Positions 4,737 to 29,617 of a DNA stretch of 64,000 nt are shown here, piece after piece. Within the stretch, counting starts at the first letter, position 1. The number at the start of each line of letters is the position of its first letter. Both the position numbers and the translations under genes were made by a program. Location of the stretch: contig NZ_CP015596.1 of the NCBI RefSeq assembly GCF_001644575.1, forward strand, positions 5,270,001-5,334,000, written 5' to 3'. The notes beneath the pieces were generated by a model. It did no database searches and was not told the DNA's origin. It worked only from the letters and a program-made list of their open reading frames with translations. The DNA comes from Mycobacterium adipatum. GTDB taxonomy: Bacteria; Actinomycetota; Actinomycetes; Mycobacteriales; Mycobacteriaceae.

Positions 4737-5054
4737 TCAGATGTCCTTGCCATTGCGCTTGGAGACCCGAACCTTCTTGCCCGACTCCTCGTCGACGCGG
4801 TAGCCGATGCGGGTGGGGTTGCCGTCGGAGTCGATGACCATCACGTTGGAGACGTGGATGGCCGCCTCCTGCGTGACGATGCCGCCGGAGGAGGCGCCGC
4901 GCTCGTTCTGCGACTGCGCGGTGTGCTTCTTGATCCGGTTCACGCCCTCGACGAGGACCTTCTCGCGGGACGGGTACGCCTCGATGACCTTGCCCTTGGC
5001 GCCCTTGTCCTTACCGGAGACCACGAGCACGGTGTCACCCTTGTGCACCTTCAT
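4737..5054 (-). CDS. rplX: 50S ribosomal protein L24
   Basis: 105 residues with the KOW motif at the N-terminus ([20 protein letters not shown]), the mark of L24, an initiator of large-subunit assembly. The gene begins directly at the rplN stop codon (5055), suggesting translational coupling. Confidence 0.97.
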
Positions 5055-5423
5055 TTACAGCACCTCCGGGGCGAGCGAAACGATCTTCATGAACTTCTTC
5101 TCACGCAGCTCGCGGCCCACCGGGCCGAAGATGCGGGTGCCGCGCGGATCGTTGTCCGCCTTGATGATGACGGCGGCGTTCTCGTCGAACTTGATGTAGC
5201 TGCCATCGGCACGGCGACGTTCCTTGACGGTGCGCACCACGACGGCCTTGACCACATCGCCACGCTTGACGTTGCCGCCCGGGATGGCTTCCTTGACGGT
5301 CGCCACGATGATGTCGCCGATGCCGGCATAGCGCCGCGACGAGCCACCGAGAACGCGGATGCACAAGATCTCCTTGGCACCCGTGTTGTCGGCGACCTTC
5401 AGCCGCGATTCCTGCTGAATCAC
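5055..5423 (-). CDS. rplN: 50S ribosomal protein L14
   Basis: 122 residues starting at GTG 5423 ([18 protein letters not shown]), with AGGAG 6 bases upstream. The start and the C-terminal [24 protein letters not shown] are diagnostic of L14, which forms an intersubunit bridge. It is the first gene of the spc operon here and is preceded by a promoter-like sequence and a 120-base leader rather than by rpsQ. Confidence 0.97.
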
Positions 5424-5606: not shown

Positions 5607-6032
5607 TCAGACGACGGCGGCGCTGAGCTCCACTTCGACGGGCGCCCCGGACGGTAGGGCACAGACCCCGATCGCGCTGCGGGCGGGCAGCGCGGCGACG
5701 CCGAGTTCGGCCGCCAGCACGGCGGAGGCGCCGTCGGCGACCGCACTGAGCGCGGTGAATTCGGGCGTGCAGGCGATGAACACCGTCATCCGCAGGCAGC
5801 GCAACGTCCCAGGTCCCGGCATCGCCGCCCGGGCCGCGCCGAGCGCGTTGCGCGCCGCGAGCCCGGCCGCCGCGCGCGCCTCCTCGGCACTCAGGGTGGC
5901 CCCGACGACACCGGTGAAGACCAGCACACCGGCGCGTCGGGGCGTCATACCCGCGGTGTGGATGACGCCGTCGTGGCACACCGCGGGCACATAGTCGCCC
6001 TGCGGGGCGGGCACCGCCCAGTCAGTCGACAC
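5607..6032 (-). CDS. RidA/YjgF-family protein
   Basis: 141 residues from GTG at 6032, which overlaps the end of the upstream hydrolase gene by 11 bases. RidA proteins hydrolyse reactive enamine/imine intermediates; relatives such as RutC act in catabolic pathways. The PARSAIGV segment near the C-terminus carries the arginine that in RidA binds the substrate carboxylate. An ATG farther upstream (6080) would lie deep inside the neighbour and is less likely. As the last gene of the HDO operon it may deal with an imine made by the pathway, or simply protect against one. The substrate is unknown. Confidence 0.8.
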   Translation of the reverse strand: MSTDWAVPAPQGDYVPAVCHDGVIHTAGMTPRRAGVLVFTGVVGATLSAEEARAAAGLAARNALGAARAAMPGPGTLRCLRMTVFIACTPEFTALSAVADGASAVLAAELGVAALPARSAIGVCALPSGAPVEVELSAAVV

Positions 6033-7626
6033 CGAGCGCCACACCCTCCTGGCGGGGGTCGGCGGCACCGCTGAGCACACCCCGCTCGTCGACGGAGATC
6101 AGCTGGGCGCTGCCGCCGGCACCGTGATCGGGTTGCACGACGAGGCGGTGCCCGAGAACGGCCAGTTCGTCGCGCACCGCAGCGGGCAGGGCGGCCTCGA
6201 CGCGCAGTTCGTCGGGGGCGCCGACGACGTCGGCGTCCGAACCCGGGAAGACGGTGAACCGGGGTGCCGCCACCGCTTCGGCGGGATCACGGCCATGGTC
6301 GAGGAGGTGGGAGATCAGCTGCATGTTCCACTGCACCTGCCCGTCGCCGCCCGGGGTGTTGCCGACGTGCTTGAGCGCACCCGCGTCGTCGGTGACGATC
6401 CAGGCGTTGAGCGTGTGCAACGGTTTCCGGCGCGGTTTCACCTCGTTGGGATGCCCGGGTAACAGGTAGGCGCCTCGGCCGAGACGGTTGTTGAGCACCA
6501 CCCCGGTGCCCGGCACCGTGAATTTCGCGCCGAAGGTGAACGCCAGCGAATGGATGAAGCTGACCGCCCGGCCGTCGGCATCCACCGCCACCGTCGAGGT
6601 GGTGTCACCCGCCGCGACCGCGATCGGGCCGCGGACTTCGGTGCGGGCGTCGAGATCGCGGCGTTGCGCGTCCAGGCGTTCGGCGGTCAGGATGTAGTCG
6701 GCACCGTCGCGACGATTATCGCTGCCGCACAATGCAAATCGGTCTACAAACGACAGTCGGGCGGCGCGGGCGAGCCGGTCGATGCCGGCCGCCGACAGCC
6801 AGTCGGCCGCAGCGAGGACGCCGTCGCACAGCGCCGCCTGCTGCAGCACCATCCAGCCCGGCGTCGGCAGCGGCGTCTGGTGCAGCACCGCGCCGGCGTA
6901 GCGCCCGGTGACGGCGCGCTCCGGGGTCACCTGCGCGCCCGCCGCCCATTCGTCGCCGCTGAACGGCGCGCCGCCGGCCTGCAACGCCGCCACGGCGCGT
7001 TCGGCGAACTCGCCGGTGTAGAAGCTCACCGGGTGCTGCGCCAAGGCACGGATGGTGGCCGCCAGCGCCGGTTGCGGCAGCCTGCGCCCCACCGCGGCGG
7101 CAACACCGTGCGGTGCATAGATCTCGGCAAGTCCGGGATCGGCGGCGACCGCGCGGGCCGCCTCACCGACATCACCGGCGGTGCGCGCCGAACAGGGCAG
7201 CCCCTGCTCGGCGATACGGGCGGCCGGTTCCCACAGCTCCGGCAGCGACCGGGTGGCCCCGCCGTCATGCAGTGCCGCCAGCGCGGCGGGAGCGCCGGGC
7301 ACCGCGACGGCCAGCGGGCCATCCAGCGGTATCGCGGTAAGGCCTTGCCCGGCATAGAAATCCGGGGTACCCCCGTCGGGACCGAAACCGGATCCGTTGA
7401 CGGTCCACACCCGCCCGTCGGGTTCGCGGACCACCGCGAAGGCGTCGCCGCCGATACCGCACTGGCCGGGCAACGTCAGCCAGGTCAGCCCGGCCATCGC
7501 CAGGGTCGCGTCGATGGCGTTACCCCCGTCGGCCAGCACCCGGGCACCGGCCAAACTGGCCGCCGGATGACTGCTGCTGACCATGCCGCCCGCCGACAGC
7601 GCCGGCGGCCGAGGCGCCGCGTTCAT
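6022..7626 (-). CDS. Gamma-glutamyltransferase-family Ntn hydrolase, probably an amidohydrolase
   Basis: 534 residues from ATG 7626, sharing one base with the preceding stop. The fold is that of the gamma-glutamyltransferase family, which self-cleaves before a catalytic threonine; the expected nucleophile is T342 in DTTSTVAVDADG. The family NN motif (VVLNNRLGR, about 379-380) is present. However, the PLSSM segment that shapes the oxyanion hole in true gamma-glutamyltransferases reads KPLHTLNAW (H404-T405), a pattern I associate with relatives such as oxamate amidohydrolase. No signal peptide is visible, so it is probably cytoplasmic, unlike periplasmic GGT. Its place in the HDO operon suggests an amide or gamma-glutamyl-amide substrate; this is inference. 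Confidence 0.75.
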   Translation of the reverse strand: MNAAPRPPALSAGGMVSSSHPAASLAGARVLADGGNAIDATLAMAGLTWLTLPGQCGIGGDAFAVVREPDGRVWTVNGSGFGPDGGTPDFYAGQGLTAIPLDGPLAVAVPGAPAALAALHDGGATRSLPELWEPAARIAEQGLPCSARTAGDVGEAARAVAADPGLAEIYAPHGVAAAVGRRLPQPALAATIRALAQHPVSFYTGEFAERAVAALQAGGAPFSGDEWAAGAQVTPERAVTGRYAGAVLHQTPLPTPGWMVLQQAALCDGVLAAADWLSAAGIDRLARAARLSFVDRFALCGSDNRRDGADYILTAERLDAQRRDLDARTEVRGPIAVAAGDTTSTVAVDADGRAVSFIHSLAFTFGAKFTVPGTGVVLNNRLGRGAYLLPGHPNEVKPRRKPLHTLNAWIVTDDAGALKHVGNTPGGDGQVQWNMQLISHLLDHGRDPAEAVAAPRFTVFPGSDADVVGAPDELRVEAALPAAVRDELAVLGHRLVVQPDHGAGGSAQLISVDERGVLSGAADPRQEGVALGVD

Positions 7627-7982
7627 CACAGCCCCCGGCGGGCCCGGCGGGTCGGGCCCGCGGGCGCCTCCCCCGGCTCGACACCGACGAAGATCTCGCC
7701 GTCGCGTTCCTGGCACGGGAAGGTCTTGATGGGTTCGGTGGCCGGCGGGCTGATCGGTTCGCCGGTCTCCAGGTCGAACGCACTGCCATGACAGGAGCAG
7801 CCGATCCCGTCGTCGCGCAGCTTGCCCGAGGACAGCAGGCAGTCCAGATGGGTGCAGTAGTTCGACGTCGCGTAGGCCTTGCCGTTCAGCCGTGCCACGG
7901 CGAACTCGTGATCGCCGGAGTAGAACCGGCGGACTATCCCCTCGGGCACCTGCCCGGATCGCGCTACCCGAACGAATTCCAT
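7626..7982 (-). CDS. Rieske [2Fe-2S] ferredoxin (first of two)
   Basis: 118 residues from ATG 7982 with GGAGAG just upstream; an upstream in-frame start at 8012 lacks such a site. The cluster ligands are clear: CTH in NYCTHLDC and CSCH in GCSCHGSAFD, the CxH...CxxH Rieske pattern. Small cytoplasmic Rieske ferredoxins pass electrons from a flavoprotein reductase to an oxygenase. It lies between the aldehyde dehydrogenase and the Ntn hydrolase, and a second Rieske ferredoxin is in the same operon, so one may serve a different partner. Confidence 0.9.
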   Translation of the reverse strand: MEFVRVARSGQVPEGIVRRFYSGDHEFAVARLNGKAYATSNYCTHLDCLLSSGKLRDDGIGCSCHGSAFDLETGEPISPPATEPIKTFPCQERDGEIFVGVEPGEAPAGPTRRARRGL

Positions 7983-8019
7983 TGTTGCTCTCCGTGTTTC
8001 TGTGATGACCAAGGAAGGG

Positions 8020-9465
8020 TCAGGCGTCGAGATAGACGGTCTTCTCGGCCAGGTAGAACTCCATCATCGAGGCACCGGCCTGTTCCTTGAACGTCGCCGT
8101 CGATGATGCCTTGTACCCGCCGAACGGCGCATTCATCGCCATCCCGGTGGTCGGTTGATTGATCTTCACCAACCCAGTGCGCGACCGGCGGGCGAACGTC
8201 TGCGCGGTGGCCAGGTCCGAGGTGACGATGGCCGCGGACAGCCCGAACTCGGTGGCGTTGGCCAACTCGATCGCCTCCTCGAACGAGCCGGCACGCTGGA
8301 ACGCCAGCAGCGGGCCGAACACTTCTTCGGTCACGATGCGCATCGTGGGGTCGGTGTCGGTGAACACCGCGGGTCGCACGAAGTGGCCGCCCGGGCCGCC
8401 GGCCACCTCCACGGTGGTGCCCCCGCAGCGCAGCCGCGCACCTTCGGCGACACCGGTGGCCACGTAGTGCGCGAACTTGTCGAGTTGCTGTGCGCTGGCC
8501 AGTGCCCCCATGTCGACACCGGCGTCGCAGCCGGGGCCGACCACCAATGCGTCGGTGCGTCGGATGACCCGCTCGACCAGGTCGTCGTGCACCGCGTCGG
8601 TCGCGATCACCCGGCTGGTGCCGGTGCAGGCCTGCCCGGACAATCCGAAGGCGCCCTTGACGATCAGGGCCGCCGCGCGGTCGAGGTCGGCGTCATCGGC
8701 GACGAGCACCGGGTTCTTGCCACCCATCTCCAACTGCACCCGCCGGTGCGGCCCGACCTGGGCATGGATCGCCCGACCGACCCCGGTGGAACCGGTGAAC
8801 GTGACCGCGGCGATCCGCTCGTCGGCCGCCACCGCGGCGCCTGGGGCCCCGTCGCCCTGGACGAGCGCGATCACCGACGGCGGCAACCCGCCGGCCAGCA
8901 ACGCCTCGACGAGACGTTGCCCCATCAGGGGGGTGATCTCGGACGGCTTGAACAGCACCGGGTTTCCGACCGCGAGAGCGGGGCCGAGCTTGCGCGAGGG
9001 GATGTTGAGCGGGAAGTTCCACGGGGTGATCGCCCCGACCACACCGACGGGTTCGCGCAGCGTGTACAGCAGGGTGTCCCCCACCGCCGGCAGCGTCACC
9101 CCGGCGCAGCGGGTCGCCTCGGCGGCGTAGTACCGCAGGTTGGCCGGTGTCCGACTGACCTCCATGGTGGCCTCGGCGACTGTCTTGCCCTCCTCGCGCA
9201 CCAGCTCGGCGATCAGCTCGGGCGCGCGCTGCACCAGCTGGGCCGCAGCCGATTCCAGGATCGCCGCGCGGCGCTCGGGTGCGGTCGCCGCCCAACCGGG
9301 TGCGGCCTTCACCAGCCCGTCCACCGCGTTGGCGACGTCCTCGGGGCCCGACGCCGGGAAGTTCCCGATCACATCGGTGGGGTCGGCCGGATTGGTCCGG
9401 GTGAAGGTGTTTCCCGAGCGGGCGGGCACCCAGGCGCCGCCGATCAGGTTGAGTCCGGTGATCAC
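8020..9465 (-). CDS. NAD(P)-dependent aldehyde dehydrogenase
   Basis: 481 residues from GTG 9465, overlapping the reductase stop (GTGA). Full-length ALDH superfamily: the cofactor-binding FTGSTGVGR, the general base glutamate in QLEMGGKNPVL and the catalytic cysteine in GQACTGTSRV are all present. The enzyme should oxidise an aldehyde to a carboxylic acid; the operon context suggests the aldehyde comes from oxidation of an amine or related nitrogen compound by the diiron protein. Members with this look are often annotated as semialdehyde or benzaldehyde dehydrogenases, but the substrate cannot be read from sequence. Confidence 0.93.
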   Translation of the reverse strand: MITGLNLIGGAWVPARSGNTFTRTNPADPTDVIGNFPASGPEDVANAVDGLVKAAPGWAATAPERRAAILESAAAQLVQRAPELIAELVREEGKTVAEATMEVSRTPANLRYYAAEATRCAGVTLPAVGDTLLYTLREPVGVVGAITPWNFPLNIPSRKLGPALAVGNPVLFKPSEITPLMGQRLVEALLAGGLPPSVIALVQGDGAPGAAVAADERIAAVTFTGSTGVGRAIHAQVGPHRRVQLEMGGKNPVLVADDADLDRAAALIVKGAFGLSGQACTGTSRVIATDAVHDDLVERVIRRTDALVVGPGCDAGVDMGALASAQQLDKFAHYVATGVAEGARLRCGGTTVEVAGGPGGHFVRPAVFTDTDPTMRIVTEEVFGPLLAFQRAGSFEEAIELANATEFGLSAAIVTSDLATAQTFARRSRTGLVKINQPTTGMAMNAPFGGYKASSTATFKEQAGASMMEFYLAEKTVYLDA

Positions 9466-10706
9466 CGCTGCACCTGCGTTTCTTCGTCGATGTCTGCGTA
9501 CGCGAGGTCCCACAGGTCGATGTCCTCGTCGCACAGGGCCGCGATGTCGACATCGCGGCCCAGCAGTTCCCGCACCGCCATGATGTCCTCGCCGCGGTCG
9601 ATGGCGAACGCGCCGCACACGGTGGAGCCCTCCAGATAGAAGCCGGTGAAGTCCAGCGCGCCGACATCGCCGCGGATCACCGGATCCCCGGTGGCCACGC
9701 CCACGAATTGGAGGTTGCGGCCGTGCTGATCCGACCAGAACCACGGCGCATCATCGGAGACGGTGTCGCGGCCCAGCATCGCGTTGGACACCGCGACGCC
9801 CTGCCTGCTGGCGTTGTCGAAGTGTTCCGAGCGAATGTGGCGGCCCGCCCGCGCTGAATATCGGCGGGCCACATCACCGGCGGCGTAGATGTTCGGGATG
9901 CTGCTGCGGCCCGACGCGTCCACCACGACGCCGTCGCGCACGTGCAGGCCGGAGGCCTCGGCGGCGGCGGTGTTCGGTGTGATGCCGATGCCGATCACGA
10001 CGGCGTCGGCCTCGAAAGGCGTTGCGCTGCCCGATACCTCGATCACCACGCCGTCGCCGGTGGTCCGGATGCCGTCCAGCTGCACGCCGGTGCGCAGATC
10101 CACGCCGTTGTCGCGGTGCAGCCCGCTGACGGCCTGGCCCATCGCCGTTCCGAGGATGCGGGCCAGCGGCACCGGTACCGATTCGAACACGGTGACCGCC
10201 ACCCCCGCCGCGGCCGCGGTGGCCGCGATCTCCAGACCGATGAAACCCGCGCCGACGATGGCCAGCCGCTTGCCCGGTACCAGCACCCGAGCCAGCGCCA
10301 CGGCATCGTCGAGGGTGCGCAGGTAGTGCACCAGGTCCGGGCGCGGACCCTGCACCGCCACCCGGCGCGGACTGCCCCCGGTCGCGAAAAGCACTGCGTC
10401 GGCGGTGATGTCGACTCCGCTGTCCAGTGCCACGGTGCGGGTGCCGGGTTCCACCCGGGCCACGCTGGTTCCGGTGAGAATCTCTATGTCGTTGTCGGCG
10501 ATCCAGCTGGGCCGCAGAATCCACAGGGCCGACTCGCTCTCGGTGCCCGCCAGAAATTCCTTGGACAGCGGCGGCCGCTGATAGGGCGCGTGGGGTTCGT
10601 CCCCGATGAGCACGATGCGGCCGTCGAAGCCCTGCCGGCGCAGGTTGCGGGCGGCGACGGCGGCGGCCTGGCCGGCGCCGACGGTGACGATGGTGCGCGG
10701 TGTCAT
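9462..10706 (-). CDS. FAD-dependent ferredoxin reductase
   Basis: 414 residues from ATG 10706 (ATGA overlap with the Rieske stop). Two dinucleotide folds are visible: VTVGAGQAAAVAA for FAD at the N-terminus and LAIVGAGFIGLEIA for NAD(P)H in the middle, with the conserved YAAGDVA near the FAD end and a C-terminal reductase domain. This is the rubredoxin/putidaredoxin/BphA4-type reductase. With the adjacent Rieske ferredoxins it forms a complete NAD(P)H to reductase to ferredoxin chain, very likely feeding the oxygenase-like gene upstream. Confidence 0.92.
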   Translation of the reverse strand: MTPRTIVTVGAGQAAAVAARNLRRQGFDGRIVLIGDEPHAPYQRPPLSKEFLAGTESESALWILRPSWIADNDIEILTGTSVARVEPGTRTVALDSGVDITADAVLFATGGSPRRVAVQGPRPDLVHYLRTLDDAVALARVLVPGKRLAIVGAGFIGLEIAATAAAAGVAVTVFESVPVPLARILGTAMGQAVSGLHRDNGVDLRTGVQLDGIRTTGDGVVIEVSGSATPFEADAVVIGIGITPNTAAAEASGLHVRDGVVVDASGRSSIPNIYAAGDVARRYSARAGRHIRSEHFDNASRQGVAVSNAMLGRDTVSDDAPWFWSDQHGRNLQFVGVATGDPVIRGDVGALDFTGFYLEGSTVCGAFAIDRGEDIMAVRELLGRDVDIAALCDEDIDLWDLAYADIDEETQVQR

Positions 10707-11050
10707 GTCCGCGCCTCCTCTGCGGTGCGGGCCGGCACGGTTTCCGGCGCGAGGTTGACGTAGATGGTGCCGTCGTCGTCGACGCGCACCGGGTAGGTGG
10801 GCTGGCACCGATCCTGATCGGCCTCGTGGCCGGTCTCCAGGTCGAACTGCCATTGGTGGCCCGGGCAGATCACCTTGCCGTGCAGCAGCGTCCCCTTGAA
10901 CAGCGAACGATCTTGGTGCACACAGAGATCGGCGAAGGCATACACCCGCCCTTCGGTCTGGAACAGCGCGATGGCCAGACCGTCGACCTCGACCCGCAGC
11001 TTGCGGCGTCTGCCCAGTTCTCGTGCGGTGGCGACCGCGGTCCACTCCAT
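10703..11050 (-). CDS. Rieske [2Fe-2S] ferredoxin (second of two)
   Basis: 115 residues from ATG 11050. Ligand motifs CVH (in DLCVHQDRS) and CPGH (in VICPGHQWQF) give the CxH...CxxH Rieske pattern. It sits directly between the diiron protein (64-base gap) and the reductase (ATGA overlap), the most likely electron carrier between the two. It is clearly different in sequence from the Rieske ferredoxin at 7626-7982. Confidence 0.9.
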   Translation of the reverse strand: MEWTAVATARELGRRRKLRVEVDGLAIALFQTEGRVYAFADLCVHQDRSLFKGTLLHGKVICPGHQWQFDLETGHEADQDRCQPTYPVRVDDDGTIYVNLAPETVPARTAEEART

Positions 11051-11114
11051 GATTCTCCTGTCCGATCCCGGCACGCCCGCGCGTGCGTGGCTGGCGAGGG
11101 CGCGCCGAGGTCTC

Positions 11115-11834
11115 TCAGACGCCGGCGGGCTCCAGCTCGGGTGCGACATAGGTGTCGTACAGACCCTTGGTGTAAGAGAACCGCATCTCCGCGCCCCAGC
11201 GCACCATCTGCAGGCAGCGCTGCTGCAGCGCCACGGTGTCGGCGTGGTCCAGCACGATCTGGTAGCCGCGTTCGCCGTGCACCACATCGGAGGTGATGTG
11301 CAGATCGAAGAACTCGATCTCGTCCTCGGTGAACTTGTAGACCTCGCGCAGCGGCACGATCTGCTTGGTGTAGATGCTGGGCACCTGCGATTCCAGACCC
11401 ACCACCAGCGCGGCGGTGGCCACCACGAAGTGTTCGCGCTGCGACACCGCATAGCACCAGGACTGCAGGCCACGGGTGATGGCGTTCATGTTGTTCGGGT
11501 CCTCGATGCGTTCCTTGGTGGTGCCGCACGCCTCGCCGAACTTGATCAGCAGGTCGGTGTGCCGGATGTCGGCGAGCTCCTCCTCGTACATGTTCTGCAG
11601 CGTGAAATCCTTCGCGCCGGTGAACTCGTCGGGGGTGTTGGAGTAGATGTTGGCCAGGTAATCGGCGAACGGTCCGACGTAGTGAAAGTGGTTCTCCGCC
11701 CAGCGCGCGAAGTGGTGGCGCTCCAGCTGCCCCTCGGCCCACGCCTTGGAGAAGGATGCGTTCTTGGCCTCACGGCCCTTGATGGCGTTCTCGAGTTCGG
11801 CGCGGAACTCGTCCCGGCCCAGCAACTCAGTCAT
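11115..11834 (-). CDS. Heme-oxygenase-like diiron oxidase (HDO/PqqC-like) family protein
   Basis: 239 residues from ATG 11834 (GGG about 10 bases upstream; an in-frame start at 11873 is possible). All-helical protein of the iron-containing redox/PqqC-like superfamily. Candidate metal ligands: a glutamate at 84-86 (MYEEELADIRH), H92, E148, and the diagnostic H179-x3-D183-x2-H186 in DLHITSDVVHGE, the spacing seen in HDO enzymes that oxidise amines, amino acids or fatty acids with O2. Ligand assignment rests on motif spacing, not alignment. It heads an operon with its own Rieske/reductase chain and an aldehyde dehydrogenase. A TenA-like or cofactor-free PqqC-like role is less likely given the retained ligands. 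Confidence 0.82.
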   Translation of the reverse strand: MTELLGRDEFRAELENAIKGREAKNASFSKAWAEGQLERHHFARWAENHFHYVGPFADYLANIYSNTPDEFTGAKDFTLQNMYEEELADIRHTDLLIKFGEACGTTKERIEDPNNMNAITRGLQSWCYAVSQREHFVVATAALVVGLESQVPSIYTKQIVPLREVYKFTEDEIEFFDLHITSDVVHGERGYQIVLDHADTVALQQRCLQMVRWGAEMRFSYTKGLYDTYVAPELEPAGV

Positions 11835-11936
11835 GGATTCGATCCCTTCGATCTGTTGATTTCGCGAAACCACCGACTTTGAAGGGTGTTTCGCATCTGA
11901 TGGGGCTGCAAGACGCCGCTGCGCTGCGAAGTCGCC

Positions 11937-11954
11937 TGTGCACCAGCGACATTA
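11937..11954 (-). promoter_or_regulatory. Candidate HDO operon promoter with GTGCACA box at the start site
   Basis: On the minus strand a TAATGT hexamer (11949-11954) fits the mycobacterial -10 pattern TANNNT. Just downstream, where transcription would start, is GGTGCACA (11937-11944). A second GGTGCACACC lies at 12018-12027. No convincing -35 was found. The overlap of box and start site suggests repressor or PucR-regulator binding, as inference. Confidence 0.4.
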
Positions 11955-12031
11955 ACCTTCGACTCTGGGGTTGGGACATGGACAACATCACCTCCGATGC
12001 CCGTCACCCCGAGTCATGGTGCACACCGGCC

Positions 12032-12484
12032 TCAGTGCGTGCCGACCGCCGCGGTCAGCGCCTCGAACTCGGCGAGGATCGCCGCTCCGACCGCCTTGTC
12101 CTGTGCACCGTTACCACCGCTGATGCCGACCCCGCCGATGATCTGGCCGTTGAACACGAGCGGGAAGCCACCGACGAATACGGCGAACTTGCCGGGCAGC
12201 ATATGGCTGATTCCGAAGGCCTCGTTGCCCGGCAACGCCGGCCCGTCGGGTGCCTCGTTGAACAGGTGGGTGGCCCGCTCGTGACCCGCGGCGGTGAACG
12301 CCTTGGCGATCGAGATGTCCACGCCCGTCAACCGGGCACCCGGAAGTCGGTGCAGAGCAAGGACATTGCCGCCGTCATCACAGATGCACAGGGTCTGCTT
12401 GACACCGATCTCCTCGGCCTTGGCGCGCCCGGCGGCGAGCAGCGGCAGGGCGTCGTCGAGGGTGATCCGGTAGATCTGGTGCAT
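12032..12484 (-). CDS. GlcG/HbpS-like protein
   Basis: 150 residues with the GlcG/HbpS (PF03928-type) fold signatures: TLCICDDGGNVLALHRLPGA near the N-terminus and GGFPLVFNGQIIGGVGISGG near the C-terminus. Some relatives bind heme or act as PduO C-terminal-like domains; others sit beside glycolate or amine catabolic genes with no known activity. The start has a good site (CAGGAGGTCAGCAG before ATG). It lies 197 bases upstream of the HDO gene, divergent from the PucR regulator, and probably belongs to the same regulon. Confidence 0.8.
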   Translation of the reverse strand: MHQIYRITLDDALPLLAAGRAKAEEIGVKQTLCICDDGGNVLALHRLPGARLTGVDISIAKAFTAAGHERATHLFNEAPDGPALPGNEAFGISHMLPGKFAVFVGGFPLVFNGQIIGGVGISGGNGAQDKAVGAAILAEFEALTAAVGTH

Positions 12485-12726
12485 TCTGCTGACCTCCTGA
12501 GATTGTCGGCGCTGGCCGAATCCGGGTGTGACGGGCGATCTCGCCCGCCGGCGGTGTGCCTGGTGAATGTCTACCGGGGCGAGCGCACCTGCGCCTTGGT
12601 CACAATGTCGGCTTTATCGGACGCATCGTGGTCAAGGTGCACATAGTCTGTGGGCAGTCGAGAATGTGATGGTGTTGGTTCGAGCCCGCCACCTCGATGA
12701 TCGCTTCGCACAGGGCAGGTGAGGAC
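12485..12726. promoter_or_regulatory. Divergent control region between the GlcG-like gene and the PucR regulator
   Basis: 242 bases between two divergent starts. A GGTGCACA box (12636-12643) is followed immediately by TAGTCT (12644-12649), a possible -10 for the PucR gene. No strong -35 was seen. The same box type occurs at the HDO promoter and upstream of the permease at 16171. Confidence 0.35.
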
Positions 12727-14397
12727 ATGGCACCAGAGCACCCCCACGGGGACCGGATGACGGTCGCCGGTTTGCTGGACGAATCACTTATGTCCGGCGC
12801 CCGGGTGGTCGCCGGAGACGATCATCTGGGCCGCGAGTTGCATTGGGTGCTGCCCCTTTCCGAGGTGCTGTCCCGGCACGAGCCGCTCGACGGTGTGGCG
12901 GTCTACGCGCGCCCGGAGGCGCTGCTGGGCACCGCGGGCGCGCTGGCGGCGCTGGCCGCCCGCGGGGCGACGACGCTGGTAGTCGACGGTTCGGTGCCCG
13001 CCGATTTCCCGTCCGCCCTGCCGGCCGGTCTGGTGGTGGTCGAGACGGCATTTCCGGTCGGGTTCACCGCGTTGAACCGGCTGCTCGCCGAGCGGGCGCT
13101 GAGCCAGGAAGTGCACGTGATGCGGTACGCCACCCACGTGCACGCGTCCCTGGCGGGGCTGTTCCACCGTGGGGCCGGCCTGCAGATCTTGATCCGCGAG
13201 GTGTCCAACCTGGCCCGTAATCCGGCGCTGGCGCTCGACGCCCGCGGCCACATCGTGGCCCATAACGGTGTGTCCGCCGAGGCGGCGGGGGCCCTCACCG
13301 AGCTCATCGTGCCCAGGCTCACCGTCGACCTGCCGGCCGCGGCCCGGCTCTCCGGACACCACGACACCCGCGTCGAACATCTCACCGACCTGCACGCCAA
13401 CACCTGGACGGTGATCTCCACCGCCATCCGGCTCGGCAAGGCGTTCGAGGGCTGGGTGGTCGTCCTGGTCCCGGGCGCCGAGCCCGGAGCCCATGATCTG
13501 GCGCGGCACAGGGTCGTCACCGAACAGGCGACGGCGATCATCGGTTCGGAGATGCTGCGACAGCACAGCGTCGACGAGGCCGAGGAACGCGCCCGCGGCG
13601 ATTTCGTCCAGGCCCTGGTGCACGGACACTTCTCCAGCGAGCACGATATGCGCGCCCGGGCCGAGTACCACGATGTCGACATCGATTCGCAGTTCGGTGT
13701 TTTCGTCGCCCCGGGGGCGATACCGCACGGTGCGGACAATCCCGCGGCCAGCATGGTGCGGTTGGCCCGCTACGCCGCCAACGTGGCACCGGACCCGGCC
13801 GTGCGCTCGTATGTCACTGTGCTCGGCGATGTCCTGGTGGTGGTGCGGTCGCTGTGTGGTGCGGACGACGCCGCGCGGCGCCGCGAGATGGTGCATTACG
13901 CCGAGGCGATGGCCGGTGAGCTGGAGAACCGTCGCGGCGCAGCCGTCGCCGTGTGCTACAGCAGGCCGGTGACCGGCGCGCAGTCCGTCTCCGCCAGTTA
14001 CCGAGAGGCCCGTATCGCACTGGGCATCGCGCGCAGACTGGGCCTCACCGGCGCGGTGGCGTACCAGGATCTGCGCAGTTTCACCGTGCTCGCCGAGATC
14101 GCCGAGACCGAGCAGAGCAAGGCCCTGGTCAACGACATACTGGGGCCGCTGCGCGGTACTCCGGATCTGCGCGATTTCCTGACCGGCTACCTGGCCAACG
14201 GCGGGAACGTCAATGCCACCGCCAGGGTGCTCAATGTGCACCGCAACACCATGCTGACCAAGTTGGATCGGGTGTCGCGGGCGATCGGGTTGGACGTGCG
14301 CGTGCCCGACAATCAGTTCACCGTCTGGTTGGCGATCCGGCTCGACCTGCTCAGTGAGGTGCACACCGCCGTCGACCGCGAGGCCAGCTTTCGCTGA
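12727..14397 (+). CDS. PucR-family transcriptional regulator
   Basis: 556 residues from ATG 12727 (AGGTGAGG just upstream; an in-frame ATG at 12697 is weaker). The N-terminal 120 residues match the purine-catabolism-regulator sensor domain (TVAGLLDESLMSGARVVAG... then ALLGTAGALAALAARGATTLVV). The middle resembles a GAF/GGDEF-like linker, and the C-terminus is the PucR HTH (LANGGNVNATARVLNVHRNTMLTKLDRV). Such proteins usually activate catabolic operons in response to the substrate. It is divergent from the GlcG-HDO genes and convergent with the MFS transporter, so it is the likely regulator of this region. Confidence 0.88.
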   Translation: MAPEHPHGDRMTVAGLLDESLMSGARVVAGDDHLGRELHWVLPLSEVLSRHEPLDGVAVYARPEALLGTAGALAALAARGATTLVVDGSVPADFPSALPAGLVVVETAFPVGFTALNRLLAERALSQEVHVMRYATHVHASLAGLFHRGAGLQILIREVSNLARNPALALDARGHIVAHNGVSAEAAGALTELIVPRLTVDLPAAARLSGHHDTRVEHLTDLHANTWTVISTAIRLGKAFEGWVVVLVPGAEPGAHDLARHRVVTEQATAIIGSEMLRQHSVDEAEERARGDFVQALVHGHFSSEHDMRARAEYHDVDIDSQFGVFVAPGAIPHGADNPAASMVRLARYAANVAPDPAVRSYVTVLGDVLVVVRSLCGADDAARRREMVHYAEAMAGELENRRGAAVAVCYSRPVTGAQSVSASYREARIALGIARRLGLTGAVAYQDLRSFTVLAEIAETEQSKALVNDILGPLRGTPDLRDFLTGYLANGGNVNATARVLNVHRNTMLTKLDRVSRAIGLDVRVPDNQFTVWLAIRLDLLSEVHTAVDREASFR

Positions 14398-14401
14398 CCG
14401 G

Positions 14402-15796
14402 TCACCGTTGCGGTGTCGGGTCGGGCCCGATGAACGAGCCCGCCAGGCCGAGCACCGCGACACCGCAGACCATCGCGAACGCCAACGTGAAGCCGATGGT
14501 GGTGTCGAGGTCCAAGGCGATGGCGACCCACGCGGCTCCCATCGCCGACCCGCCGAAGCGCACCAGATTGAACAGCCCGAGCCCGGTGCCTTGGGCTCCC
14601 GCCGGCGAGCGAGTGGCCCCGGTGGCCGCCGGCGTCTGCACCAACGCCGTCCCGATCCCGATCAGCACCAGGATCGCGACGAAGCCGGCCAGGCCCCAAC
14701 GCCTTTCGAGCAGATGCTGACCGACAGCCACCGCGAGCAGCGCCTGACCGAAGATCAGCAGCGACAGGCCCGTCCGCAGCACCCGGCGGGCACCGATCTT
14801 GTCGAGGTAACGTCCGACCAGCGGGCCGAGGATCACCATCGAGGCCGGGATCGCCAACAGCACCACGCCGGCCAGCGACCCGGTCCGGCCGCTGCCGACC
14901 AGGTAGAGGGGCACCGCGAGCAGCGTGGCGCCCAGGCTGAACATGAACGCGAACGCACCGAGGGTGCTGCGCACGAACCGGGCCTCCGCAACCAGTCGGA
15001 CGTCCACGAAGGGTGTGGGCACCCGGAGGCAGTGCCGGACGAAGAAGACCAGGATCGCCACCGACACCACCACGGCGACGCCGACCGCGACCGAAAGTCC
15101 CTGGGCCGGGATGAGTGCCACCGCGAGGATGAGCAGCCCGGATCCCAGTGTCAGTGCGACGGCGCCGACGGTGTCGAAACGCATCCGGGTGCCCGGATGG
15201 CGGGGGATGTGGCGCAGCGTGCCCACGAACCCGGCCAGGGCGACCGGCACCAACGGCACGAAGACCCAGCGCCACCCCCAGCCGTCGGCGACAAAACCAC
15301 CCATGGTGGGACCGATGGCCTGACCGATACCGTTCACCGAGGCCCACAGCCCCACCGCTCTGCCCCGGCGCTCCCCGGCGAACAGCCAGGTCAGCAGGCC
15401 GAGCACGGCCGGGCCCAACGCCGAGGCCGCCGCACCGCCCAGGCAGCGCCACAGGATCAGCAGTTCCAGCGACGGCGCGGTCGCCGCACCGACGGCGCAT
15501 ACCGCCGTCGCGAGCATCGACGCGCAGTACATCCGGCGCCGGCCGAATCGGTCGCCGATCCAGCCGACGAGCGGCATCGTCGCGGTGAACGTCATCAGAA
15601 AGCCGACCACCACGAACACGCCGCTGCCCAGCGGTGCGTCGAACTCGGCGAGGATCGCCGGCATGGGCACGTTCACGACGTTGTTGCTCACCGTGCCGAC
15701 CAGGGTCCCGGAGAGCAGCGCGGCCAGCGCCAGCGGCGTGCCGGCTCCTTCGGGGACGGCCGGGCCCGCCGGCGCGCGGCTGTCTGTATCAGTCAT
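14402..15796 (-). CDS. MFS transporter, DHA2 (EmrB/QacA) type
   Basis: 464 residues with about 14 predicted membrane segments and the MFS motif A (GDRFGRRRM, about residues 80-88). The N-terminal SGTLVGTVSNNVVNVPMPAI is typical of the DHA2 drug:H+ antiporter group. It ends 4 bases from the convergent PucR gene and starts at the edge of a 374-base control region containing GTGCACA boxes. It could export a toxic intermediate or import a substrate; sequence does not decide. Confidence 0.85.
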   Translation of the reverse strand: MTDTDSRAPAGPAVPEGAGTPLALAALLSGTLVGTVSNNVVNVPMPAILAEFDAPLGSGVFVVVGFLMTFTATMPLVGWIGDRFGRRRMYCASMLATAVCAVGAATAPSLELLILWRCLGGAAASALGPAVLGLLTWLFAGERRGRAVGLWASVNGIGQAIGPTMGGFVADGWGWRWVFVPLVPVALAGFVGTLRHIPRHPGTRMRFDTVGAVALTLGSGLLILAVALIPAQGLSVAVGVAVVVSVAILVFFVRHCLRVPTPFVDVRLVAEARFVRSTLGAFAFMFSLGATLLAVPLYLVGSGRTGSLAGVVLLAIPASMVILGPLVGRYLDKIGARRVLRTGLSLLIFGQALLAVAVGQHLLERRWGLAGFVAILVLIGIGTALVQTPAATGATRSPAGAQGTGLGLFNLVRFGGSAMGAAWVAIALDLDTTIGFTLAFAMVCGVAVLGLAGSFIGPDPTPQR

Positions 15797-16170
15797 GGCG
15801 GGGACTTCCGTGGCCGATCTGTGGAGTGGATGCGCGGGGATGCACGCACGTGCATCGGTCCAGTTACTGTCTCACTCCCCACGCGGCAGGGGTGACGTCC
15901 GGGTGAGTCAAGGCGCACAGCGACGTTGCCCGTATTCGGGCATCATGCACACCACGCTCCGGGTGTGCACAGGGTGACACCCCCCACCGGGCCGCGGATT
16001 TTAACGTCTGCGAAACACCGCGACATCAGGATGACAATGTCGGAACACGTTGCACAGGGGCGTGCGCACAGCGTTGTGCACAGTGTGCGTTGACCCGTCC
16101 GGGCAACGGGCCCAGCATTCCTGCATCAGACTGCACAGCCCACGAGCAGTTGTGAGTGAAAAGACCCTCA
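15797..16170. promoter_or_regulatory. Divergent intergenic region with clustered GTGCAC inverted repeats
   Basis: 374 bases without a gene, between the MFS transporter (minus) and the permease (plus). It holds ATGCAC-N4-GTGCAT (15840-15855), TGCACACC-N8-GGTGTGCA (15946-15969), TTGCACA (16051-16057 region) and the palindrome TGTGCACA (16075-16082). The repetition suggests an operator cluster for a dimeric regulator. No coding sequence was recognised here. Confidence 0.45.
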
Positions 16171-17727
16171 ATGGACATACACCTGAGCGCGGCCCATTGG
16201 ATCTACCTGGCCGGGATTGTCGTCATTCTCATCACGATGGCGCTCCGCAAGAACATCGTCGTGCCGGCGGTCATCGCGACTCTGCTTACCGCGTGGGTGT
16301 TTTCGGGCAGCATCGTGACCGGACTCTCGTCGATCTTCAATGCCAGCCTGGTCGCCGCCCAGGAGCTGTTCAACATCTTCCTCATCATCGCGTTCATCAC
16401 CGCCATGCTGGGCGCGCTGCGTGAGATGGGTGCCGACAAACTGATGGTGACCCCGTTCCGGCGGGTGATGCGCGCGGGCACCAGCAGCTTCATCACCCTC
16501 GCGATCGTCACCTACGTCATCTCGCTGTTCTTCTGGCCCACGCCGGCCGTCCCACTGGTGGGCGCCGTGCTGATACCGGTGGCCATCCGCGCCGGCCTGA
16601 GCCCGCTGTCGGTGGGCATGGTGATCGCCATCGCCGGGCAGGGCATGGCGCTGTCGTCGGACTACATCATCAAGGTCGCGCCCGGTATCTCGGCGACCGC
16701 GGCCGGGGTCGACCCCGACGGTGTGGCCGACAAGGCGCTGGTGCTCTCGCTGATCACCGGTATCGCCGCGCTGCTCATCACCTACGTCATGCAGCGCAGG
16801 ACATGGCGGAAGCCGTCGGCGGATCTGCTGGTCGCCTGGGAGAACAAGGCCGACAAGCTCGGCCTGCCCGAGGACGGACCGGGTTCCGGTGCCGGTGGTA
16901 CCGGGTCGGCTCGCGACGGTGGCGACGGTCGCACCCCGGTGCCGACGGGCTCCGGTGGCACGTCGGCCACCGCAACGCTGGTGGCGGCGGACACGCTGAC
17001 CGAGCCCGCCCCGTCGAACTCGTTGGCCGCGAAGATATTCGCCACCCTGGTGCCCGCCGCCTACCTCGCGTTCATCGTCTACCTGCTGCTCGGGAAATTC
17101 ACCTCGCTGGTGCCGCCGCTGCAGGGTGGCGACGCGGCGGGCATCGTCGGCGGTATCGCGGCGATCCTGCTGTTCGCCGCCTGCCTGACCAACGACAAGC
17201 GCGACTGCCTGGAAAGCTCGTCCACCCACATCATCGACGGGCTGGTGTTCGCCTTCAAGGCGATGGGCGTCGTGTTGCCGATCGCCGGGTTCTTCTTCAT
17301 CGGCAGTGGCGACTTCTCCGCACGCGTGCTCGGGATGGGAGCCGACGCCACCGGGCCGGCCTTCCTCTTCGACCTGATCAGTGCCGCAATGGCGCATGTG
17401 ACGCCCAGCCCGTTCGTCCTCGGTTTCGGTGTGCTCTTCGTGGGAATCGTTGCCGGACTTGATGGTTCCGGATTCAGCGGTCTGCCGTTGACGGGCTCGC
17501 TGGCCGGCGCGCTCGGCCCCGCCGCCAACATGGATCCGGCCACCCTGGCCGCCATCGGCCAGATGGGCAACATCTGGTCCGGAGGCGGCACCCTGGTGGC
17601 CTGGTCCTCGCTGATCGCGGTCGCCGGCTTCGCTCGGGTCCCGGTGCTGACCCTGGCGCGCAAGTGCTTCCTGCCGGTGATGGCCGGTCTGGTGCTCTCC
17701 ACGGTCTTCGCCATTCTCGTCTTCTGA
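16171..17727 (+). CDS. Ion-transporter-like permease, unknown substrate
   Basis: 518 residues from ATG 16171; a GTG at 16156 is an alternative. About 11-12 hydrophobic segments. The FWPTPAVPLVGAVLIPVA and GMALSSDYIIKVAPGISATAAG regions resemble carboxylate/ion transporters of the IT superfamily (GntP, DcuC, NhaC-like), but I do not recognise a specific family. The centre carries a cytoplasmic-looking Gly/Ser/Thr-rich loop (about residues 230-275). The stop overlaps the start of the next gene (TGATG). Proximity to the PucR regulon makes an organic-acid or amine-product uptake role possible, as inference. Confidence 0.6.
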   Translation: MDIHLSAAHWIYLAGIVVILITMALRKNIVVPAVIATLLTAWVFSGSIVTGLSSIFNASLVAAQELFNIFLIIAFITAMLGALREMGADKLMVTPFRRVMRAGTSSFITLAIVTYVISLFFWPTPAVPLVGAVLIPVAIRAGLSPLSVGMVIAIAGQGMALSSDYIIKVAPGISATAAGVDPDGVADKALVLSLITGIAALLITYVMQRRTWRKPSADLLVAWENKADKLGLPEDGPGSGAGGTGSARDGGDGRTPVPTGSGGTSATATLVAADTLTEPAPSNSLAAKIFATLVPAAYLAFIVYLLLGKFTSLVPPLQGGDAAGIVGGIAAILLFAACLTNDKRDCLESSSTHIIDGLVFAFKAMGVVLPIAGFFFIGSGDFSARVLGMGADATGPAFLFDLISAAMAHVTPSPFVLGFGVLFVGIVAGLDGSGFSGLPLTGSLAGALGPAANMDPATLAAIGQMGNIWSGGGTLVAWSSLIAVAGFARVPVLTLARKCFLPVMAGLVLSTVFAILVF

Positions 17728-18425
17728 TGGCACTGACCGAGACCGAGGAGAAGCTGGCCCTGGCCGCGACCGTCACCCTCACCTTCGTCACCGGGGTCGT
17801 CGACGCGGTCGGCTTCCTGGCCCTGGACCGGGTGTTCACCGGCAACATGACCGGCAACATCGTCATCCTCGGCATGGGCGTGGCGGGTGCGGACGATCTG
17901 CCGGTGCTGGGTCCGGCGATCGCGCTGGCCGCGTTCACGGCGGCGGCTTTCGTCGCCGGACTGGTGTTGCGGGCCGGGGCCAAGGGCTGGCAACACCGGG
18001 TCACCGTGCTGCTCACGCTCGGCGCAGTGACGTTGGCCGCGCTGACCGCCGTCGCCGTCGTGGTGGGCGATCAGTCCGGGCCGGCCCTCCAGGTGATGAT
18101 GGCCGCCGCGACGGCCGCGGTGATGGGTTCCCAAGCCATGGTCGCCCGGGCCGTCGGGGTCGCCGACATGACCACCGTCGTGGTGACCTCCACGCTGGCG
18201 TCACTGGCGGGCGAGACCTGGACCCGCCGCGGCGGCGGGGTGCTGCTCAACCGTCGATTCGGGGCCATCGCCGCGATCTTCGCCGGAGCAGTGGCCGGCG
18301 CCCTGCTGCTGCGCTGGCACATCGCGGTGCCCTTCGCCGTGGCGACCGCACTGACCTCAGCCGTCGCGGTGCTCGGCCACCTGCGGTTGTCGCGCACGCT
18401 GCTGATCGACGTGTCCGCGCGGTAG
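17727..18425 (+). CDS. YoaK/DUF1275-family membrane protein
   Basis: 232 residues from ATG 17727, which overlaps the stop of the permease gene. The sequence FVTGVVDAVGFLALDRVFTGNMTGNIVILG is the YoaK (DUF1275) signature: a six-helix integral membrane protein of unknown function. Translational coupling to the permease suggests they work together. Confidence 0.85.
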   Translation: MALTETEEKLALAATVTLTFVTGVVDAVGFLALDRVFTGNMTGNIVILGMGVAGADDLPVLGPAIALAAFTAAAFVAGLVLRAGAKGWQHRVTVLLTLGAVTLAALTAVAVVVGDQSGPALQVMMAAATAAVMGSQAMVARAVGVADMTTVVVTSTLASLAGETWTRRGGGVLLNRRFGAIAAIFAGAVAGALLLRWHIAVPFAVATALTSAVAVLGHLRLSRTLLIDVSAR

Positions 18426-18447
18426 CCGCTGACCGCCGCAGCGGTCG

Positions 18448-19179
18448 TCACGGAATCCGGACCTCGAAATCTCCGGTCAATTCCCCTGCCGGCGCATCGA
18501 ATCCGTCGGTATCGGCCGGCGCTTCGGTGTGCACCGACACCAGGTATTGACCGGTGTTGGTCCACACGTGCACGACACGGTCGACGAACTCGACTGACCC
18601 CTCGGGGGTGTCGGACACCGCGCCGAGCATCTTCTGCCCGCTGTAGCCGCACAATTCGGCGGGCAGCACGCTCAGCGAACTCTCCGCGGCCTCAGCGGTG
18701 AGAGCCTCGGCGTACTCGGCGAATGCGGCCTGCGGGTCCAGCGTGGTCGCCGCGATCCGCACCGTCGCCGACATCCCCGCCGGACCGGTGAACTCGGCGC
18801 CGATGTCACCGGCCCCACTCTGCATGGACCAGCCCTCGGGGACGGCGACCGTGACGACGGGCGCCTTCGCGTCGGCCACCTTGGCCACCATGCCGACCGC
18901 CGGGCGCGGCTCCGGCTCGCAGGTGACGGCGCCCGCGGGGACGGCCGTCGTGCTGGTCGGCACCACACCGAAATCCGGGTGCCCGGTAACGCCGGTCGCG
19001 GTGCCGGGGTCGGCCGGCGCGGTGGTCCTCGCCGTGGTCGTCTCTGTGGTCGTCGCTGTGGTGGCCGCAGTGACGCTGTCGGCCACCGGCGTTCCCTGCC
19101 CGGGCTTCGTGCACGACACCGCCGTCAGGACGGCACAGCACAGCATCACTGCGGTCGAGGTCCTCCCGCCGCCGTTCAT
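18448..19179 (-). CDS. Secreted lipoprotein, unknown function
   Basis: 243 residues. The N-terminus is a lipoprotein signal peptide with lipobox LTAVSC, so the mature protein begins at C23 and is anchored outside the cell membrane. A Thr/Ala/Pro-rich linker (about 38-60) leads to a globular part (PVVTVAVPEGWSMQSG...) that resembles the LpqN/LpqT-type lipoproteins of mycobacteria. It starts on the last base of the atsA stop (TGATG), so it is cotranslated with the sulfatase. Confidence 0.75.
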   Translation of the reverse strand: MNGGGRTSTAVMLCCAVLTAVSCTKPGQGTPVADSVTAATTATTTETTTARTTAPADPGTATGVTGHPDFGVVPTSTTAVPAGAVTCEPEPRPAVGMVAKVADAKAPVVTVAVPEGWSMQSGAGDIGAEFTGPAGMSATVRIAATTLDPQAAFAEYAEALTAEAAESSLSVLPAELCGYSGQKMLGAVSDTPEGSVEFVDRVVHVWTNTGQYLVSVHTEAPADTDGFDAPAGELTGDFEVRIP

Positions 19180-28668: not shown

Positions 28669-28965
28669 CTACTTCGCCTTTTCCAGGATCTCGACCAGGC
28701 GCCAGCGCTTGGTCGCCGAGGTCGGGCGGGTCTCCATCAGCGAGACGCGGTCGCCGATACCGGCATCGCCGTTCTCGTCGTGCGCCTTGACCTTGGTGGT
28801 GGTGCGGATGATCTTGCCGTAGAGCGGGTGGCTCTTGCGGGACTCCAGCTCGACCACGATGGTCTTCTGCATCTTGTCGCTCACCACGTAGCCGATGGCC
28901 GTCTTGCGACGTCCACGCACCTTCTCGGTGGCCGGCGTGTGGTTGGGGCCTTTAGTGTCTGCCAT
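28669..28965 (-). CDS. rpsQ: 30S ribosomal protein S17
   Basis: 98 residues. The core [33 protein letters not shown] is S17, an early 16S-rRNA-binding protein. It carries a short N-terminal extension ([15 protein letters not shown]). It is the last gene of the S10 operon and is followed by a terminator, whereas in most bacteria rplN follows directly. Confidence 0.97.
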
Positions 28966-28967
28966 GG

Positions 28968-29201
28968 TTACGAATCCTCACCAACGGGTCCGGAGGCCAG
29001 ACCCAGTTCACGTTCACGCAGCACGGTGTACACCCGTGCAATCTCGTGGCGCACAACACGCAGGCGCCGGTTGTTGGTCAGCTGACCGGTCGCCATCTGG
29101 AAGCGCAGATTGAACAGCTCTTCCTTCGATTCGCGCAGGCGAGTGGTGAGCTCCTCCTCGGTGAGCTCACGCAGTTCGCCAGGCGTAACTCCCACTGCCA
29201 T
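28968..29201 (-). CDS. rpmC: 50S ribosomal protein L29
   Basis: 77 residues, with [34 protein letters not shown] typical of L29 at the peptide exit tunnel. It starts on the last base of the rplP stop (TGATG overlap). Slightly long at the C-terminus compared with E. coli. Confidence 0.97.
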
Positions 29202-29617
29202 CAGAACTGCTCCTCTCGGGTCACGATGCGCGCCTTGATCGGCAACTTGTGGATTGCGCGGGTGAGAGCATCGCGGGCGATCTTCTCATCCGGGTAGCTG
29301 AGCTCGAACAGCACGCGGCCGGGCTTGACGTTGGCCACCCACCACTCGGGCGAACCCTTACCGGAGCCCATGCGGGTCTCGGCGGGCTTCTTGGTCAGCG
29401 GGCGGTCCGGGAAGATGTTGATCCACACCTTGCCGCCACGCTTGATGTGCCGGTTGATGGCAATACGCGCGGACTCGATCTGCCGGTTGGTGATGTAGGC
29501 GTGCTCCAGAGCCTGGATGCCGTAGTCACCGAAGCTCACCGAGGTGCCGCCGCTGGCGGTACCGCGCTGGCGCGGGTGGTGCTGCTTGCGGTGCTTGACC
29601 CTGCGGGGGATAAGCAT
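29201..29617 (-). CDS. rplP: 50S ribosomal protein L16
   Basis: 138 residues from ATG 29617 ([19 protein letters not shown]), the canonical L16 start; longer upstream readings run into rpsC. The [23 protein letters not shown] segment is an L16 signature. L16 organises the A-site tRNA region of the large subunit. Confidence 0.97.

Follow-up and report, generated by a model that had tools for sequence, protein, structure and literature searches.

The 64,000-nt window analyzed here (C1:5270001-5334000 of the 6.05-Mb genome of the soil actinobacterium Mycobacterium adipatum) carries an operon built around a predicted heme-oxygenase-like diiron oxygenase (HDO), together with genes for putative electron carriers, an aldehyde dehydrogenase (ALDH), a hydrolase, and a RidA-like protein. 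The operon is real and uncharacterized; the HDO kind itself is already known. Our overall reading, to which we assign a probability of about 0.5, is that of a self-contained, substrate-induced catabolic unit whose HDO would generate an imine/aldehyde to be dealt with by RidA and ALDH. The unit comprises about eleven genes and is rare and patchily spread, yet tightly conserved.

On the minus strand, the HDO gene (11115..11834; PF14518, 114.6 bits) is followed by genes for a 115-aa Rieske ferredoxin (R1; 10703..11050; PF00355), a 414-aa ferredoxin reductase of the HcaD/AndAa type with flavin adenine dinucleotide (FNR; 9462..10706; PF07992 and PF14759), the 481-aa ALDH (8020..9465, GTG start; PF00171), a second Rieske ferredoxin of 118 aa (R2; 7626..7982; PF00355), a 534-aa N-terminal nucleophile (Ntn) hydrolase of the gamma-glutamyltransferase (GGT) family (6022..7626; PF01019), and a 141-aa Rid-family, RidA-like protein (5607..6032, GTG start; PF01042). 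A 150-aa GlcG/HbpS-like DUF336 protein (12032..12484; PF03928) is encoded upstream of HDO on the same strand. Beyond it lie a divergent gene for a PucR-family regulator (12697..14397, plus strand; PF13556 and PF17853), a DHA2-like transporter of the major facilitator superfamily (MFS; 14402..15796, minus strand; PF07690), and a 523-aa permease without a Pfam or NCBIfam match (16156..17727, plus strand). Assignments from HDO to RidA, and those of GlcG, PucR, and MFS, come from Pfam matches above the curated cutoff, by which every gene of the original prediction was confirmed at its position and in its family. The core of the predicted operon likewise stands, while its limits widen, as the unit also takes in PucR, MFS, and the permease. 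Stops and starts had been described as mostly overlapping. Of the six junctions in the HDO-to-RidA series, four do overlap (R1/FNR, -4; FNR/ALDH, -4; R2/GGT, -1; GGT/RidA, -11), and gaps of 64 and 37 bases intervene at HDO/R1 and ALDH/R2, respectively. No riboswitch or other RNA reached the gathering threshold within window positions 1 to 30000.

A search for the gene set in other genomes showed it to be conserved. Of 512 confirmed relatives, the scan of named genomes covered the best 80, so that its counts describe the closest ones; gene matches were counted at E ≤ 1e-6, and the 63 of the 80 loci in which HDO has flanks of at least 7.5 kb to either side served as the full-neighborhood set. 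R1, FNR, and R2 were matched in all 63, as was the permease, whose count includes 13 loci matched by a piece of at most half its length, where a variable central loop may split the match. ALDH and PucR followed with 62 loci, RidA and GlcG with 61, MFS with 59, and GGT with 58. All eleven genes, HDO counted, were matched in 54/63 loci; this figure excludes the DUF1275 membrane protein encoded next to the permease (17727..18425, plus strand; PF06912), a frequent but not constant neighbor found near HDO in 31/63. The order HDO-R1-FNR-ALDH-R2-GGT-RidA is kept on a single strand in 48 loci, and the remaining 15, which include Streptomyces, Pseudonocardia, Actinomadura, and Nonomuraea, are rearranged or short of genes. 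That the set stays together despite changes in order is stronger evidence for a functional unit than a fixed order. As a control, we used 28 remote HDO-like loci from the phylum search (22 to 30% identity, flanks up to 1.5 kb), in which no match to R1, FNR, R2, GlcG, or PucR occurred within those flanks; HDO itself was re-matched at that threshold in 19 of the 28, and some contigs are short. Cutting the 80 loci equally to 1.5 kb retained R1 in 80, FNR in 79, R2 in 57, and GlcG and PucR in 44 each. In the uncut loci, the R1 count of 80 includes one locus (L056) with a best match of 33%, located 2,958 bases from HDO, which is probably R2. The control is hardly informative on ALDH (8/80 in the cut) and uninformative on GGT and RidA (0/80).

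Within the genus (198 genomes), HDO occurs in 23 genomes, GGT in the identical 23, and the permease in these and in another genome that is 73% complete (24 in total), with E limits of 1e-40 for HDO and permease and 1e-100 for GGT. An HDO-like match at E ≤ 0.001 was obtained in 58 of the 396 genomes of the phylum sample, and one below 1e-100 in only 2, the window's own included; in the class of genome G031, HDO was found in 8/395 genomes at E ≤ 1e-40. Mycolicibacterium frederiksbergense LB 501T shares the window HDO at 100% identity, and the clade spans 81 to 100% identity in the 80 named loci (best 80 of 512), 62 to 76% in seven genomes, and 49% in one. Six plasmids or chromids of Burkholderiales carry an HDO with 65 to 68% identity, three of which (two Cupriavidus, one Caballeronia) were examined. 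A wider comparison set 11 divergent loci beside the 80 named ones (91 in total); of these 11, 8 have both ALDH and GlcG close to HDO. Median identity to the window protein is 90.0% for HDO, 86.4% for GlcG, 80.3% for R2, and 54 to 70% for the others. One divergent locus (L131:8888-19500) is a minimal version of the unit, reading HDO (48%), rubredoxin-like gene, ALDH, GlcG (69%), and PucR (40%), followed by genes that, judged by eye, resemble a branched-chain-amino-acid-type ABC transporter.

The claim that HDO travels with its own electron carriers held up well. In 79/80 loci, R1 is encoded downstream of HDO, on its strand and at a distance of at most 400 bp; FNR was matched in 79/80. FNR, R1, and R2 resemble the carriers of ring-hydroxylating dioxygenases, such as the Bph, Hca, and And Rieske chains; the closest solved relative of R1 is the Rieske ferredoxin of biphenyl dioxygenase, and FNR scored 342.3 bits against the HcaD model, below its cutoff of 450. 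The unit differs from these systems in having HDO in place of the Rieske oxygenase subunit. Pfam detected no oxygenase-subunit family among the operon proteins, R1 and R2 being of ferredoxin size (115 to 118 aa), and a Rieske oxygenase system was rejected because the unit has no terminal oxygenase subunit. In one divergent locus (L127), FNR (44% over 378 aa) and R2 (57% over 99 aa) are fused and adjoin HDO and R1, which suggests the order FNR to R2 to R1 to HDO. Other lineages swap the carriers. A [2Fe-2S]-ferredoxin-like gene, resembling Caballeronia/Cupriavidus [2Fe-2S] ferredoxins, is inserted between HDO and R1 in six loci (L031, L125, L126, L128, L129, and L130); a rubredoxin-like gene follows HDO in L131; and the three Burkholderiales loci contain two ferredoxin genes and a BenC-like reductase gene in the cluster. 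A match to a one-electron carrier was thus present near HDO in 91/91 loci. Carriers that are swapped yet always present fit an HDO requiring electrons at each turnover. HDO therefore probably requires outside electrons and likely takes them from the Rieske chain. Its pairing with electron carriers is well supported; their order we infer.

HDO is a predicted two-metal, O2-activating enzyme. Alignment to CADD residues that we take to be metal ligands places its predicted three-His/three-carboxylate set at E85, H92, E148, H179, D183, and H186, all of them invariant in 30/30 sequences and in 11/11 divergent loci (partly overlapping the 30). CADD (TIGR04305) is the nearest named family by sequence (85.8 bits, below the cutoff of 200), and the nearest solved relatives are of the CADD/PabS type; the PqqC model TIGR02111 scored 43.4 bits against a cutoff of 240, and HDO had no match in PHROGs. 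HDO shares its ligands with CADD/PabS but has Ser29 and Gln158 in place of Tyr27, which we take to be the sacrificed tyrosine of CADD, and of Lys152, presumably a functional residue under this numbering; both replacements are invariant in the 30/30 and 11/11 sets. Synthesis of para-aminobenzoate, as by CADD/PabS, was rejected because a Ser occupies the Tyr27 position. The predicted model adopts a heme-oxygenase-like fold, with CADD, UndA, HrmI, and PolF among its structural matches, and the three-His/three-carboxylate ligand set is that of HDOs in the available text of PMC13108848 and PMC13185094.

The unit is likely catabolic. A regulator, transporters, a hydrolase, and an aldehyde dehydrogenase together are typical of catabolism, and the original idea of an uncharacterized, catabolic-looking operon is supported. 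As for the pathway, whose substrate and step order we infer, the permease would import a small, probably anionic nitrogen compound. Were the compound to come in amide form, the GGT-fold Ntn hydrolase would open it, a role that an amidase or an alpha/beta hydrolase may fill elsewhere; that an amide is opened at all is a tentative proposal. HDO would then oxidize the compound next to the nitrogen over many turnovers, with electrons presumably flowing from NAD(P)H through FNR, R2, and R1, and an unstable hydroxylated product would break down into an imine and an aldehyde. The imine may be handled by RidA or, in other lineages, by an ornithine-cyclodeaminase-family protein; ALDH would turn the aldehyde into an acid. 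GlcG may bind or sense the aldehyde, and PucR, judging from its gene position, would control the unit. We consider the odds roughly even that HDO yields an imine/aldehyde on which RidA and ALDH then act. In sum, the main point of the original prediction, an operon pairing HDO with carriers, is sound, whereas its order of chemical steps goes beyond the evidence.

Individual proteins refine this scheme. The GGT-family protein scored 297.6 bits against PF01019 (cutoff, 27) and keeps the Thr that we take to be the family nucleophile, the motif reading GDTT in 10 rows of an 11-row alignment and GTS in the remaining one, L031. Its family assignment is thereby upheld, but not its identity as a true GGT, for it remained below the NCBIfam GGT cutoff (233.1 versus 357.85) and, in the alignment to GGT 4y23, carries a Ser at the position of an Arg that is presumably a substrate-binding residue. 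A gamma-glutamyl substrate is unlikely because of this Ser, and a gamma-glutamylamide pathway with a true GGT was rejected, the Arg being missing and no glutamylamide synthetase occurring among the unit genes. Amidase-cluster genes (two clusters, one member of each checked as PF01425) stand beside a permease-like gene in 13/80 loci, and the Caballeronia locus has an alpha/beta hydrolase; such variable hydrolases may reflect variable amide or ester forms of a single substrate. The Rid protein scored 46.7 bits against PF01042 (cutoff, 27.3) and only 25.9 against TIGR00004 (cutoff, 106.25); its closest solved relative is PA0814, and the Arg is kept in the alignment. An ornithine-cyclodeaminase-family protein is encoded in L126, in both examined Cupriavidus loci, in Caballeronia, and in L031, which additionally carries a Rid protein. 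The top curated models for ALDH are dioxovalerate dehydrogenase (488 versus a cutoff of 750) and alpha-ketoglutaric semialdehyde dehydrogenase (441.9 versus 770), both below cutoff, and its solved relatives at E ≤ 1e-80, betaine and phenylacetaldehyde dehydrogenases, are not informative. GlcG, the most conserved partner after HDO by median identity, belongs to the same DUF336/HbpS-like family as EfgA and keeps the residues aligned to K57, S114, and D121, the formaldehyde contacts of that sensor; these contacts are largely conserved among DUF336 homologues (PMC8153426, available text). GlcG differs from EfgA in being encoded in a catabolic-looking operon, whereas efgA is described there as lacking a conserved context.

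A relative of the permease in L125 weakly matches DctM (24.1 bits; cutoff, 23.8), a hint that the family may carry anionic substrates. The likeness of the MFS protein to drug exporters stays below cutoff. No neighbor that would name the substrate was found in the 80 named loci, the 11 divergent loci, or three plasmid loci picked by permease, GGT, or ALDH similarity. The permease family occurs in seven plasmid records, six with HDO and one without; in the latter, from Arthrobacter sulfonylureivorans (L115), it adjoins genes for a luciferase-like enzyme, an amidase, an ALDH, and a Rid protein. Next to the unit, several loci of Mycolicibacterium and Actinomadura (L033:16468-19418, L036:16418-19371, and L079:16725-19624) carry a second permease copy, 42 to 48% identical to that of the window, together with an amidase-cluster gene.

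Several observations weigh against the reading of a self-contained catabolic unit centered on a diiron HDO. GlcG and HDO are separated by 197 bases, and the gaps, this one included, make a second promoter upstream of HDO possible. The HDO model has a mean predicted local distance difference test score of 73.3, with residues 76 to 90, E85 among them, below 50, and its top structural match is PqqC, described as metal independent in the available text of PMC13108848. The three Burkholderiales loci yielded no match to R1, R2, FNR, GGT, or RidA over about 30 kb; L128, L129, and L130 showed neither ALDH nor GlcG in the available flanks (that of L128 ends 0.9 kb before HDO); and L098 had no match to ALDH, GlcG, or PucR. 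ALDH is only about 40% identical in some lineages, where it may be a different enzyme. Finally, GGT, the least constant enzyme (matched in 58/63), is missing from five loci and RidA from two, so neither the amide nor the imine step can be needed everywhere.

A more far-reaching reading posits a catabolic HDO branch, namely a multiturnover diiron oxygenase that replaces the terminal oxygenase of a Rieske chain and opens or cleaves an N-heterocycle, lactam, or amine through Rut-like steps, in a cassette spread among actinobacteria and Burkholderiales; taken as one joint claim, it is rather unlikely. Ring opening of the Rut kind, the foremost rival of the main reading, is slightly less probable. 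The Rut pathway of pyrimidine degradation combines the flavin oxygenase RutA, the amidohydrolase RutB, the Rid protein RutC, and an aldehyde step. By analogy, HDO would replace the flavin enzyme and open an N-heterocycle or lactam with O2, the hydrolase or amidase would cleave the resulting amide, RidA would act on the enamine/imine, and ALDH would oxidize the semialdehyde. Equivalent step types (oxygenase, amide hydrolase, Rid protein, and aldehyde step) do occur within the single operon, and ALDH resembles alpha-ketoglutaric semialdehyde dehydrogenases, if below cutoff; the oxygenase, however, is an HDO, and the Pfam families of the operon include none of those that we associate with RutA, RutB, or RutD. 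In L129 and L130, HDO adjoins dihydroorotase/allantoinase-like amidohydrolase, luciferase-like, and arylmalonate-decarboxylase-like genes, and xanthine-dehydrogenase-like genes lie about 8 kb from HDO (families scanned mostly on L129), but both loci represent a single genus-level lineage and these neighbors may serve another pathway. The L129 region (8014-19901) and L130 also encode an FrhB-like protein and look like a nitrogen-heterocycle pathway. The Arthrobacter plasmid offers a similar combination around its permease relative, but without an HDO match. That GGT is missing from five of the 63 loci also speaks against this scheme, as does the absence of ring opening from the HDO reactions in the available text of PMC13108848.

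Less probable still is a C-C cleavage like that of BesC, by which an amino acid-like substrate would yield formaldehyde or another aldehyde plus ammonia, with GlcG as an EfgA-type aldehyde sensor and ALDH and RidA removing by-products. BesC does release formaldehyde and ammonia (PMC13108848, available text), and GlcG has the three EfgA contacts. These are nevertheless weak evidence given their conservation across DUF336 (PMC8153426, available text), no formaldehyde-specific model appears among the 25 matches listed for ALDH, and no one-carbon gene was seen in the unit. A biosynthetic or protective unit, in which the DHA2-like MFS protein exports an HDO-made metabolite, would agree with the biosynthetic roles of characterized HDOs (PMC13108848, available text) and with the likeness of this transporter to drug exporters, but it is improbable, since ligase, carrier protein, and synthetase are absent among the unit genes, the combination of ALDH, Rid protein, hydrolase, permease, and PucR typifies catabolic units, and gene content is constant over many genera.

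Set against known systems, the catabolic unit combines familiar parts in an arrangement of its own. More than 10,000 HDOs are predicted and about a dozen validated, in biosynthetic roles (PMC13108848, available text); this agrees with the earlier statement that most described HDOs are single biosynthetic enzymes and lack a dedicated Rieske chain. In the same available text, "ferredoxin" does not occur and "Rieske" occurs twice, both times for a Rieske dioxygenase. UndA, BesC, HrmI, SznF, PolF, and AetD have related ligand sets but are biosynthetic, with no Rieske chain mentioned there. A close parallel is MboA/MboB of mangotoxin biosynthesis, suggested by its authors to be possibly the first characterized dedicated HDO-redox pair (PMC13185094, available text). 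Like our unit, it joins a three-His/three-carboxylate HDO to a dedicated, NADH-fed redox partner, and the Cupriavidus version of the unit likewise has a BenC-like reductase; MboB, however, is a single flavin/Fe2S2 reductase in a biosynthetic cluster, whereas the unit has a separate FNR and two Rieske ferredoxins, no peptide ligases, and a catabolic appearance. Riboflavin catabolism was rejected, as it uses a Rieske dioxygenase and not this gene set (PMC12746152, available text). No account of the gene set was found among the top-ranked matches in the open-license full-text literature, in line with the original prediction that no such pathway is described.

The surroundings of the unit deserve brief mention. 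Ribosomal protein genes are split across window positions 4737 to 29617, with S17, L29, and L16 at 28669-29617 and L14 and L24 at 4737-5423; the approximately 23 kb between the two halves contain a sulfatase gene and glycosyltransferase genes in addition to the HDO unit. L14 lies downstream of the unit in 18/80 other loci, which therefore points to a repeated or old insertion site. Two large proteins without a Pfam match (659 and 502 aa) are encoded at 24798-28297, adjoining a GT2 glycosyltransferase and a weakly PMT-like protein.

Collectively, the unit may lead to the first catabolic HDO and offers a chance to study a multiturnover HDO with its natural reductants. It also points to a soil nitrogen pathway and to a permease family without a Pfam or NCBIfam match, and, as the gene set is constant, the question lends itself to direct tests.

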